Source: a virus. From it: a stretch of DNA of 36,385 nt. Under the pieces are notes generated by a model that was given only the letters and a program-made list of their open reading frames with translations, made no database searches and was not told the origin of the DNA. The translations under genes and the position numbers were made by a program. This document shows, in pieces, positions 9,451 to 15,927 of the stretch (its first letter is position 1; every line of letters starts with the position of its first letter). The DNA is taken from positions 1-36,385 of IMG/VR virus record IMGVR_UViG_3300021574_000010; one strand, 5' to 3'.

Positions 9451-9650
9451 TTATATAACGCTTTTCTAGCATTTTTAATACATGGAACATCATGCCATTG
9501 TGGGTCATTATCTGTAAATACTTCTATTAACCATTCTAAAGCATAAGCTAAATCTTCATTTTCTTTTATAATCTTTTTTCTAATGTGAGCTTCATCCATT
9601 ACATCTTTATGAACTTTAGCTAACCATAGTTTAGTATTATGTTCTTGCAT
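9447..9650 (-). CDS. Hypothetical phage protein (67 aa)
   Basis: 67 residues from ATG 9650, which overlaps the SleB-like stop (TAATG) and has GGGAGG upstream. An earlier ATG at 9701 lies deep in the upstream gene and is less likely. The product is helical and charged, with a LAYALEWLIEVF helix and a PQWHDVPC segment. No family is recognised. Confidence 0.55.
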   Translation of the reverse strand: MQEHNTKLWLAKVHKDVMDEAHIRKKIIKENEDLAYALEWLIEVFTDNDPQWHDVPCIKNARKALYK

Positions 9651-10027
9651 TAGTAAAACACCATCCTCCCTATATGAGTAATCTTTTGATGACCAAACCA
9701 CGAATGTTTTGGCATAATTGAGTCATCATGAAAGTATAGCGCATTTGCCACTGGATTCGCATATTTTCCACGCATAACATCAAGAACAAATAATTCAGTT
9801 TTAAGAAACGTAACTTTGTCAACAGGTGCATGTTTTTCATCCTGTACAGCAAACTGACCAGAAGCATAAATAACATCACATACAGACTTACCCCAGCGAC
9901 CAGATTTAACACGATTATGAATAGTGTAATAGACACCCAATTTCTCCTCTAATGTTCTATTATTAACTTCATGGTAAAGTGCCGTAGCGTAGCACGAAAC
10001 CTCTAATTCTAAGTTATGTATATCCAT
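9650..10027 (-). CDS. SleB-like cell wall hydrolase (Hydrolase_2 family)
   Basis: 125 residues matching the SleB/CwlJ catalytic domain: CYATALYHEVNNRT with the presumed catalytic Glu20, then YYTIHNRVKSGRWGKSVCDV and the ASGQF block. The family cuts peptidoglycan glycan strands. There is no signal peptide, so it would need a holin or act in another way. It lies in the leftward arm, away from the holin/DUF5675 region. It may be the true endolysin or an early wall-remodelling enzyme. Confidence 0.75.
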   Translation of the reverse strand: MDIHNLELEVSCYATALYHEVNNRTLEEKLGVYYTIHNRVKSGRWGKSVCDVIYASGQFAVQDEKHAPVDKVTFLKTELFVLDVMRGKYANPVANALYFHDDSIMPKHSWFGHQKITHIGRMVFY

Positions 10028-10043
10028 GACAGACCTTTCATGG
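10024..10043. repeat. Short inverted repeat at the hydrolase start
   Basis: CCATGA at 10024-10029 and TCATGG at 10038-10043 form 6-base arms around an 8-base centre. The left arm includes the hydrolase ATG (10025-10027, minus strand). It could be an operator or mRNA hairpin, or chance. Confidence 0.3.
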
Positions 10044-10074
10044 TTTTCTTGTGTCTAGTAAACCCATATAAGCG

Positions 10075-10080
10075 TATAAT
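10075..10080 (+). promoter_or_regulatory. -10 box for pqqA
   Basis: A consensus TATAAT lies 33 bases before the pqqA ATG, predicting a leader of about 27 bases that contains AAGGAG. The best -35-like hexamer, TTGTGT at 10049-10054, is 20 bases away, longer than ideal. If used, this promoter reads against the leftward operon. Confidence 0.45.
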
Positions 10081-10113
10081 TCTATTATAAATCTAAAAGA
10101 AAGGAGAAACGCC

Positions 10114-10185
10114 ATGTGGACATCACCATCAGCTACAGAAATGCGCTTTGGATTTGAAGTTACTATGTACGTAATGAACAAGTAA
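10114..10185 (+). CDS. pqqA: PqqA, precursor peptide of pyrroloquinoline quinone
   Basis: 23 codons. The peptide starts MWTSPSATEM and contains GFEVTMY, with Glu15 and Tyr19 in the E-V-T-x-Y motif. Enterobacterial PqqA is also 23 residues with Glu15 and Tyr19. In the known pathway the radical SAM enzyme PqqE, with PqqD, joins this Glu and Tyr; proteolysis and PqqB/PqqC then finish the cofactor. Leading MW, the proline, the G-F/L-E-V-T-M/L-Y core and the N-K/R end all fit the family. AAGGAG lies 8 bases before the ATG and a TATAAT box 33 bases before it. The gene runs opposite to its flanking genes in a 181-base gap. No pqqB-E is present here, so the host must process the peptide. It is short enough to be missed by gene callers. 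Confidence 0.88.
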   Translation: MWTSPSATEMRFGFEVTMYVMNK

Positions 10186-10196
10186 TTATCATGCGA

Positions 10197-10228
10197 ATGG
10201 GGATGCTCCTAGAAAGGAACATCCTCAT
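10197..10228. other. Hairpin between convergent pqqA and SSB-like gene
   Basis: A stem of about 14 pairs is formed by 10197-10210 and 10215-10228 with an AGAA loop, one C/A mismatch and one G/T pair. It spans the SSB-like stop codon (10209-10211). No U-tract follows on either strand, so it is not a classical intrinsic terminator. It could protect the 3' end of the pqqA transcript or slow polymerase. Confidence 0.45.
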
Positions 10229-10445
10229 CTGCACCTTCAACAGCAGGCTTCAATCTTTCCTCAGTTGCTACCATTGCAACAGCACCACTAATAAACTTAC
10301 CATTAGGTCCTTCTCTAACCCAACCTGATAAAGTAAATTCAATACCGTCCACATTTAACTTACCACGATAGTCTGGTCGTTTAGGATTATCACCTTTATC
10401 ATTCTTGTTTAACGTAAACGTGTTCGTATTATCGTATTGCGCCAT
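10209..10445 (-). CDS. Single-stranded DNA-binding-like protein with SSB-type acidic tail
   Basis: 78 residues. The core (NTFTLNKNDKGDNPKRPDY, then GKLNVDGIEFTLSGWVREG) has the strand pattern of a small OB-like domain. The C-terminus ADEDVPF matches the acidic D-D-x-P-F tail by which bacterial SSBs recruit partner proteins. It is next to YqaJ-type exonuclease and DUF1071 annealing genes, which fits a recombination role. It is shorter than typical SSBs, so DNA binding is inferred. Confidence 0.6.
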   Translation of the reverse strand: MAQYDNTNTFTLNKNDKGDNPKRPDYRGKLNVDGIEFTLSGWVREGPNGKFISGAVAMVATEERLKPAVEGADEDVPF

Positions 10446-10448
10446 ATA

Positions 10449-11072
10449 CTACTCCTTTAGTTTAATAATTGTTTGTTCTACCTCTTCTAGAAACTTAATA
10501 ACTTCTGTCTCTAATTCTGCAATGTAATCATCATCTCTGTCAAGACGCTTTATAAAAACTTGTAATTCGTCAGGGAAATTTGGGTTGAAACTTATGAAAT
10601 CAACCCACCTAGCATTTGTACATGCCATTTGCCATTGCATCTGAGGTATGTATTTAGTAGGCACAGACTTACTCATAAGGGTATTAGTATGCGTAGTTTC
10701 TATAGGGCATTTAATCTCTATAAGACCTGCATACTTACCTTCTTCTTCTGAATTAACTGCACCATCTGGACTAGCGCCACTATTCTTAATCACAGGATGG
10801 TCAAAAAAACCTACTTCTGTTACTATAGAATTTGTTTTGCTTTCATATAGTTTTCTTGCAATAGGTTCACGTTCAATCCCATCTTGCATTGCTTGATTTG
10901 TGTATGAGTCTGTTTTTTTACCTGTTAAACGTTCCGATACAAGTTGAATAAGATAGTTTTGACGTGATGTAGATATGCCTGTTTTAGTCTTTGCGATAAC
11001 ATCCGATATTCTGGATGCTGTCACCTTACCTAGTCTTTGTTGAAACCACTCTTCGGTACCTTGGTTTATCAT
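10449..11072 (-). CDS. YqaJ-like (lambda exonuclease family) recombination nuclease
   Basis: 207 residues. GTEEWFQQRLGKVTASRISD at the N-terminus and SPDGAV (D103) with LIEIKCP (E119, K121) are signatures of the YqaJ viral recombinase domain, a PD-(D/E)XK fold. These enzymes resect double-stranded DNA ends 5' to 3' and work with a single-strand annealing protein, here the adjacent upstream DUF1071 gene (4-base overlap). Confidence 0.85.
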   Translation of the reverse strand: MINQGTEEWFQQRLGKVTASRISDVIAKTKTGISTSRQNYLIQLVSERLTGKKTDSYTNQAMQDGIEREPIARKLYESKTNSIVTEVGFFDHPVIKNSGASPDGAVNSEEEGKYAGLIEIKCPIETTHTNTLMSKSVPTKYIPQMQWQMACTNARWVDFISFNPNFPDELQVFIKRLDRDDDYIAELETEVIKFLEEVEQTIIKLKE

Positions 11073-11545
11073 AGGAAATCCTTGCTAGACACAGCTTTTA
11101 ATGTTGGCTGTTCTGACTCTGGAATATCCTCACCACTATAGATATATAAGCCAATACCATGTAACGCAATAGCTTTAGCTAAACAACGCTGCATAGCTGT
11201 ATTAACTGCCATAGCGTCAGGGTTAGGAATAGCTTGGTTTCTAAAGTTAAGCACAGGTAACTGAGCTGTCATAGACTTACCAAAAGCATGAACTGTGCAA
11301 AATACCATAAGCGTTTCACCAAAATGTTTAGGTTCGCCATAAGTCCATGTAGCAGTTGGGTCTTGCTGTAGAAGAGTATCCACAGCCCAAGCCCATGATA
11401 AGTATGATAGACCATTCTTTTTCTCAATGTGGTCTGATACATTAATCTTACGTAGTTCGTTATAGTTCATCTTTCTCTCCTGTTGTTGTAATTCTTGTTG
11501 GTGTTGTTGCATCATTACTTGGTCGTAAAACTGTTGTTGTGACAT
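11069..11545 (-). CDS. DUF1071 (Sak-type) single-strand annealing protein
   Basis: Up to 158 residues. The domain core starts at MNYNELRKINVSDHIEKKNG and includes LSYLSWAWAVDTLL and HGIGLYIYSGED, typical of DUF1071/ERF-like annealing proteins that pair with YqaJ exonucleases. Two starts are possible: ATG 11545 (GGGAGAG upstream; adds a 25-residue glutamine-rich leader) or ATG 11470 (GGAGAG upstream; overlaps the stop of the preceding small gene by 11 bases). The second fits the overlap habit of this genome; both may be used. Confidence 0.75.
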   Translation of the reverse strand: MSQQQFYDQVMMQQHQQELQQQERKMNYNELRKINVSDHIEKKNGLSYLSWAWAVDTLLQQDPTATWTYGEPKHFGETLMVFCTVHAFGKSMTAQLPVLNFRNQAIPNPDAMAVNTAMQRCLAKAIALHGIGLYIYSGEDIPESEQPTLKAVSSKDFL

Positions 11546-14642: not shown

Positions 14643-15050
14643 ATGACAATACAACAAAAATTAGAAATGTTTGATGATAATGAGCAACGTCTTATTGACA
14701 CAACATACACAAAAAAAGTTGATGTGCCTTTATATGTACCTAAATATGAAAAGCCTAACATATATGAATTGTTTGATAATTTAAAAACAATAAAATTAAT
14801 CCAAAAAATTAATCAGTCTAATGTTTCTGAAGATGAAAAGAAATTTTTAATTTTTGCAGCATATAGGCATATTGTATTTAATTTTTCAAAAATTGCAGAT
14901 TACTATGCTCATTCAAATTCTGAAATGCAACAGTTAATGGAACAATCAGCATTAGTCATTGTTGATTTTGATAAAGCTATTGAATATGGTTATGTTGCTT
15001 TAAATAATCAATTATCAAATCAATATCTGGAAGAACAAAGTGAAAGATAA
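14643..15050 (+). CDS. Conserved-looking phage protein, function unknown
   Basis: 135 residues from ATG 14643, three bases after the NinB stop (a start at 14604 lies inside NinB). A proline-rich leader is followed by an all-helical domain (KKFLIFAAYRHIVFNFSKIA and MEQSALVIVDFDKAIEYGYV). I associate this pattern with uncharacterised phage proteins near replication genes. Its end overlaps the next GTG start by 11 bases. Confidence 0.55.
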   Translation: MTIQQKLEMFDDNEQRLIDTTYTKKVDVPLYVPKYEKPNIYELFDNLKTIKLIQKINQSNVSEDEKKFLIFAAYRHIVFNFSKIADYYAHSNSEMQQLMEQSALVIVDFDKAIEYGYVALNNQLSNQYLEEQSER

Positions 15051-15927
15051 TTTTTGTGTTTTTATATTAAGTCATAATAGACATGATAGAGTGTACACTT
15101 ACGACACTTTAAAAGAAAAAGGTTATACAGGTAAAATTTTTATTATTCTTGATGATGAAGATAAATCTCATCATAAATATGTTGAAAAGTATGGTAATCA
15201 AGTAATTACTTTTTCTAAAGATAAAGTTGCAACTACCTTTGACATTGGTGATTGTTTTGATGATAAAAGGGCAGTAGTGTTTGCTAGAAATGCTTGTTTT
15301 GATATAGCTAAACAATTAGGTTATAAATATTTTATTCAACTTGATGATGACTATACTGATTTTAGATGGTCATTTGATAATAATAAAAAATATGTAACGA
15401 ATAAATATATTGAAAACTTAGACAAGATATTTGAAATCATGTTAGATTTTTATAAGAAAACATCTTTTACTTCTATTTGCATGGCTCAAGGTGGTGATTT
15501 TATTGGTGGTGAAAATAGTGGTTTAAGTAAAACATTTTTAGATGGTCAAATATCAAGAAAAATTATGAATAGTTTTTTGTGTTCAGTTGATAGACCTTTT
15601 CAATTTGTAGGTAGAATTAATGAAGATGTAAATGCTTATTGTTATTTTGGTTATAAAGGTTATTTGTTTATGACTATTGCACAATTAAGACTTGAACAAA
15701 AACAAACTCAAAGTAATGCTGGTGGTTTAACTGATATTTATTTAAGTTCTGGCACATACGTTAAAAGTTTTTATTCTGTGCTTTATAATCCATCTAGTGT
15801 AAAAGTAAGACAAATGGGTCAAAACAAAAAAAGATTACATCACAGCATAAATTGGGATGCTACAGTTCCTAAAATTATTTCAGAAAAATTTAAAAAATAT
15901 GATATATCGCAATCAAAAACTAACTAA
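15040..15927 (+). CDS. TAGT-like glycosyltransferase (TET-associated family)
   Basis: 295 residues from GTG 15040. The N-terminus (FCVFILSHNRHDRVYTYDTL, then IFIILDDEDKSHHKY) and the metal-binding LDDDYTDF (Asp102-104) form a GT-A glycosyltransferase fold. The arrangement, with FARNACFDIA before the DDD, resembles the phage TET-Associated GlycosylTransferase family, which attaches sugars to hydroxymethylated DNA bases. No TET/JBP-like oxygenase or base-modification gene is seen in the window, so the acceptor could be DNA modified elsewhere, a protein or a glycan. Confidence 0.6.
   Translation: MKDNFCVFILSHNRHDRVYTYDTLKEKGYTGKIFIILDDEDKSHHKYVEKYGNQVITFSKDKVATTFDIGDCFDDKRAVVFARNACFDIAKQLGYKYFIQLDDDYTDFRWSFDNNKKYVTNKYIENLDKIFEIMLDFYKKTSFTSICMAQGGDFIGGENSGLSKTFLDGQISRKIMNSFLCSVDRPFQFVGRINEDVNAYCYFGYKGYLFMTIAQLRLEQKQTQSNAGGLTDIYLSSGTYVKSFYSVLYNPSSVKVRQMGQNKKRLHHSINWDATVPKIISEKFKKYDISQSKTN

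Follow-up and report, generated by a model that had tools for sequence, protein, structure and literature searches.

A phage-borne gene for the PQQ precursor peptide PqqA in a podovirus-like genome and its occurrence among phages of methylotrophs

The pqqA gene and its surroundings

The stretch of DNA analysed here (the window) is the whole, linear record of a freshwater virus, 36,385 bases long, and an SU10-type portal, major capsid protein and adaptor, together with a terminase, Sak and YqaJ, identify it as a bona fide phage record. Judged from these predicted genes, the window fits the genome of a podovirus-like (SU10-type) phage, which agrees with the podovirus guessed in an earlier note made from the sequence alone. 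On the plus strand, positions 10114–10185 contain pqqA, encoding the PQQ precursor peptide PqqA; the translation of its 23 codons (MWTSPSATEMRFGFEVTMYVMNK, then a stop) bears out the mini-ORF with Glu15 and Tyr19 described in that note. The peptide matches PF08042 (Pfam PqqA; E = 8.8e-10, 38.8 bits, cut-off 21.1) and TIGR02107 (NCBIfam equivalog; E = 1.8e-8, 34 bits, cut-off 20), and since both scores exceed the curated cut-offs, its proposed identity as PqqA was upheld. Glu15 and Tyr19 form the E-x3-Y pair expected of PqqA, and the typical length (about 22–29 residues) and the possession of an individual start and ribosome site are likewise satisfied, while no family in PHROGs covers the window peptide.

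The gene lies antisense within a leftward operon, in which the flanking genes (9650–10027 and 10209–11545) are all on the minus strand. These encode a cell wall hydrolase (Hydrolase_2; 9650–10027; PF07486, E = 2.6e-16) on one side and, on the other, a single-strand DNA binding protein (SSB; 10209–10445; phrog_7364, E = 3.9e-14), which served as an unbiased anchor for the comparisons below, a YqaJ-like exonuclease (10449–11072; PF09588, E = 4.3e-30) and a Sak-type single-strand annealing protein (11069–11545; PF06378, E = 6e-39). Elsewhere in the window, a TET-associated glycosyltransferase is encoded on the plus strand at 15040–15927 (PF20691, E = 3.1e-35), a hint that bases of the phage DNA may be modified with sugars.

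Upstream of pqqA, the plus strand contains a promoter-like −10 element, GCGTATAATTCTA (10072–10084), with TATAAT at 10075–10080, and a ribosome-binding site, AAAGGAG (10100–10106), seen directly 7 nt 5′ of the ATG; the TATAAT and AAGGAG noticed earlier are thus both in place. The GCGTATAATTCTA core is located at −39 or about −56 from the ATG in relatives and is retained though two different leaders come after it, the remaining 5′ leader being different. A sigma-70 scan identified no paired promoter and no consensus −35 for the window pqqA, so that promoter activity is only inferred. A Shine-Dalgarno-like match within 18 nt of the start was present in all 253 viral pqqA copies found. A strong hairpin 3′ of the stop (10192–10233, plus strand; −22.3 kcal/mol, z −4.55) overlaps the convergent SSB gene at its 3′ end and is likely to be a bidirectional transcript end; relatives contain other hairpins at this site, several with T-runs, and a terminator-like site follows 53 of 121 distinct viral pqqA copies, compared with 0.4 in shuffles. 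A further terminator-like hairpin with a T-run lies upstream of pqqA (10024–10043, plus strand), extends into the beginning of the cell wall hydrolase gene and may insulate the cassette. With its promoter-like box, ribosome site, 23 codons and hairpin, pqqA looks like a self-contained transcription unit, the activity of the promoter being inferred.

Retention and distribution of phage pqqA

Relatives of the window were retrieved through the neighbouring SSB gene only, the presence of pqqA not being a criterion (n = 77 loci). An intact pqqA was found in 74 of these 77 loci, directly behind SSB on the opposite strand and in the same antisense place; in two of the remaining three the contig ends inside pqqA, with a partial gene visible, and only one locus (L265) is truly without it. 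Counting the partial copies, pqqA is therefore present in 76/77 loci, and because the retrieval depended on SSB alone, its retention cannot be attributed to chance; the test that the earlier note had set beforehand, namely retention of the ORF in related phages, was passed. Among YqaJ-anchored relatives, pqqA was found at 68–100% identity in all of those whose contig extends to the site, and at 56–60% identity in only 2 of 42. Records anchored by the terminase, a distant gene, contained pqqA in 14 of 17 cases, including 8/8 of those of at least 35 kb.

The 49 distinct coding sequences of the SSB and YqaJ sets gave a pN/pS of 0.158, an approximate value because it is uncorrected and calculated over all pairs, and the purifying selection on codons proposed as a check was thereby detected. 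Met1, Trp2, Thr3, Pro5, Glu9, Arg11, Gly13, Glu15, Thr17 and Tyr19 are invariant in all 49 copies, whereas the codons of most of these ten positions do vary, with changes at silent sites. The anchored set was not selected for Glu15 and Tyr19, and the scoring would still detect copies lacking either residue; substitutions nevertheless spare both in 49/49 copies, as had been predicted, and the E-x3-Y pair is present in all 253 viral PqqA copies found. These results confirm that 10114–10185 encodes a genuine, conserved PqqA.

A tblastn search of 50,697 phage records identified true phage PqqA in nine Methylophilales/Methylophilaceae isolates and one uncultured spring-water podovirus. The nine isolates (Venkman, MEP301, P19250A, MEP401, MEP402 and four Melnitz) belong to several unrelated kinds and are all of the methylotroph-phage isolates found, MEP431–434 and the partial HIM624-A being outside the count. 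A Pseudomonas-type PqqA query against the same 50,697 records returned the same set and no Pseudomonas phage, despite the many in the collection; on this sequence evidence, phage PqqA appears restricted to methylotroph phages among the phage records searched. None of the ten GenBank phage records names pqqA, which is either uncalled or lies under a “hypothetical” call, often on the opposite strand.

The location of the gene varies. The window, Venkman, MEP301 and the spring phage have pqqA next to their recombination genes; in P19250A it is found elsewhere, in MEP402 (Zobellviridae) it stands where the run of tail genes ends, and in the T4-like Melnitz phages (Kyanoviridae) it immediately precedes a tRNA-Leu gene. 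The Melnitz-1 record (L006, 6001–6166), in which the end of pqqA is followed by the same-strand tRNA-Leu, calls an antisense hypothetical ORF over pqqA. Environmental loci were collected by two degenerate DNA pattern scans of IMG/VR, each of which returned at least 120 loci, the true number being larger; among the matches listed, shared neighbour genes define three large groups and many small ones. Some viral pqqA genes adjoin a major capsid gene, either of the T4 type or from other phages; at L118 (1602–2777), pqqA and the gene of a T4-type major head protein (phrog_138) are arranged tail-to-tail, pqqA being antisense to its surroundings. In one environmental phage contig, a tryptophan halogenase-like gene (phrog_2928) is located near pqqA (L089, 5419–6558). 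Divergent PqqA types were also observed in viral contigs L130 (peptide KWETPSFEDLRFGFEVTMYINAS), L010, L024 and L131, in one case with a terminase and portal gene as immediate neighbours; they may come from phages that infect other PQQ-making hosts.

Some relatives encode GMEITAY (Met14, Ile16, Ala18) in place of GFEVTMY at the same cassette site, and a scan identified GMEITAY-type PqqA in 22 viral contigs with varied settings. The phage cassettes with GMEITAY include L494–L515, L149, L161 and L226. A search of 150 Methylophilaceae, 399 Burkholderiales and 274 Gammaproteobacteria genomes did not find GMEITAY. This subtype may have evolved in viruses, although a cellular source outside the genomes sampled is not excluded.

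Hosts, proposed role and alternatives

Among bacterial genomes, nearly all those with the MRFGFEVTMY core are methylotrophs (Methylophilaceae, Methylophaga and others), the exceptions being a few unresolved bins of Burkholderiales type, and the exact 23-residue window peptide occurs in a Methylotenera contig (L442). The nearest phage PqqA sequences are those of Methylophilales isolates. The host of the window phage, as identified by its relatives, is thus predicted with support to be a Methylophilaceae methylotroph, consistent with the AT-rich, PQQ-making methylotroph that had been inferred. All 60 Methylophilaceae genomes tested contain pqqA, in 1–12 copies (median 4.5; at least two copies in 58), some of which could be in prophages. 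Such multiplicity is expected if precursor dose matters, and a PQQ-overproducing methylotroph has five pqqA copies, two of which are strongly expressed during PQQ production (PMC9851590).

Each of the 49 long viral records (the window and 48 others) contains exactly one PqqA, and in none of them was PqqE detected above the cut-off. A full viral PQQ/methanol module (methanol dehydrogenase with a radical-SAM partner), as reported for Lake Baikal, was not found in the window or the 48 other viral records. No convincing methanol dehydrogenase was found in the phages analysed; the single match, G074/L047 (IMG/VR, 34049–41943), was rejected as phage evidence because its PQQ alcohol dehydrogenase and pqqA adjoin a SoxYZ-like quinoprotein carrier and are probably bacterial. 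Two “Acinetobacter phage” matches were also set aside, as the one inspected (L493, CAKLQF020000010.1 108210–108263) has the whole of a bacterial pqqABCDE cluster and looks like bacterial DNA wrongly entered under phages, and a match in Escherichia phage ERS-1 (E = 5, 61% over 18 residues) was taken as chance.

In the established pathway, PqqE acts with PqqD to link the Glu and Tyr residues of PqqA, and methanol dehydrogenase uses PQQ as its cofactor. The reading favoured here, considered probable, is that a Methylophilaceae phage with an orphan pqqA cassette supplies the consumed substrate to host PqqB–E and keeps methanol dehydrogenase provided with PQQ during infection; expression, processing and benefit are inferred, and for expression and usefulness there are only the indirect signs of purifying selection, promoter-like box, ribosome site and terminators. 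In the infected cell the phage would produce PqqA, host PqqD and PqqE would link Glu15 to Tyr19 of the phage peptide, and host PqqB and PqqC would complete PQQ, so that PQQ-dependent methanol dehydrogenase, through which energy and carbon enter the host, would stay supplied as host transcription falls. Because one PqqA is consumed per PQQ and the enzymes are reusable, the substrate would be the only part needing renewal. Against this reading, measurements of the transcript, the peptide or PQQ were found for none of these phages. Overexpression of pqqAB alone in Acetobacter raised PQQ by only 29%, compared with eightfold for pqqABCDE (PMC7936290), indicating that the precursor need not be limiting, and the several pqqA copies already present in hosts also count against it. 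A bolder extension, possible but doubtful at present, is that the PQQ precursor is a general bottleneck in infected methylotrophs, that at least four unrelated phage kinds separately took only pqqA, and that some carry a virus-evolved GMEITAY peptide, which host PqqD/PqqE may use more readily, or under different regulation, than the host peptides.

The same gene could instead act against the host pathway. Unaccompanied by its enzymes, a precursor could titrate the chaperone, and the GMEITAY subtype has so far been seen only in viruses; as a decoy, phage PqqA would saturate PqqD/PqqE or PqqB and cut or redirect PQQ synthesis, thereby throttling or redirecting host methanol oxidation. However, a decoy could lose the reacting residues, whereas the entire R-x-G-x-E-x-T-x-Y frame, including its Glu-Tyr pair, shows no variation, and many viral PqqA peptides are identical to host peptides, so that this function is regarded as unlikely. 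An effect on competing phages is also conceivable, in which leaked extra PQQ occupies a PqqU-like outer-membrane receptor and blocks later phages, as PQQ blocks infection by one PqqU-dependent phage of E. coli (PMC12124388); superinfection exclusion of this kind remains very improbable, as there is no evidence of PqqU use by these phages or of PqqU as a Methylophilaceae receptor, and the pqqA carriers are unrelated and unlikely to have one receptor in common.

Two further explanations dispense with a metabolic role. The cassette is small and self-contained, has many copies in hosts, and exchanges leaders and terminators among relatives, all of which would suit a host pqqA that was acquired and moved between phages without present benefit; purifying selection (pN/pS 0.16), the 76/77 anchored loci and the presence of the gene in all nine isolates found disfavour such a passenger, which is accordingly judged quite unlikely. 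Hardly tenable is the possibility that no protein is made and that what is conserved here is an RNA, antisense or structural, belonging to the leftward operon: the antisense position between two leftward genes and the strong hairpin at the end would fit an RNA, but the changes concentrate at silent sites of the plus-strand frame, and the same peptide is encoded by different DNA in phages with other pqqA places and orientations.

Novelty and relation to known systems

The earlier note had left it open whether a phage PqqA had been described, and one report does exist: phage PqqA itself is not new. In 2020, PqqA was reported together with methanol dehydrogenase and other pathway genes in VP_266, a T4-like virus of Lake Baikal (PMC7678222), and viral pqqA appears as one list entry for reservoir sediments (PMC13188868); beyond these two, no viral PqqA was found in the literature. 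Phage pqqA is not mentioned in the publications that describe MEP301, MEP401/402, Venkman and Melnitz, and a RiPP-mining paper connected a family of bacterial PqqA with defence systems and not with phage genomes. What is new is the presence of pqqA in every methylotroph-phage isolate found, the fact that unrelated phages have captured only the substrate, the self-contained cassette, and the GMEITAY subtype, seen only in viruses so far. Standard gene callers miss phage pqqA because the gene is under 30 codons, and it offers an inexpensive way of recognising from sequence those phages whose hosts are PQQ-making methylotrophs. If expressed, pqqA would be a viral control point on methanol oxidation, and cultured pairs (Venkman or Melnitz on H5P1; MEP301; MEP401/402) make it testable whether a phage must bring the consumed substrate of a cofactor and not its enzymes. 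The medium published for H5P1 includes 1 nM PQQ (PMC9004378), an amount that could mask an effect on PQQ supply.

The window PqqA has the same length and Glu-x3-Tyr pair as PqqA of Methylophilaceae (e.g., Methylotenera), including the identical peptide in L442, but the Methylophilaceae gene is chromosomal, whereas that of the window is in a phage genome without PqqE, antisense in a recombination operon. VP_266 (PMC7678222) resembles the present case in having a virus-borne PqqA with predicted support of PQQ and methanol oxidation in Methylophilaceae; unlike VP_266, the window, which is of the SU10 type, and several other phage groups have the substrate peptide alone.

Auxiliary metabolic genes that encode only a subunit are represented by pmoC in methanotroph phages and psbA in cyanophages. 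The likeness is that the phage contributes to a host energy pathway only the part that is consumed or turned over quickly; the difference is that pmoC and psbA encode enzyme subunits, whereas the 23 residues of phage PqqA make up a RiPP-like precursor, destroyed as it is turned into a cofactor.
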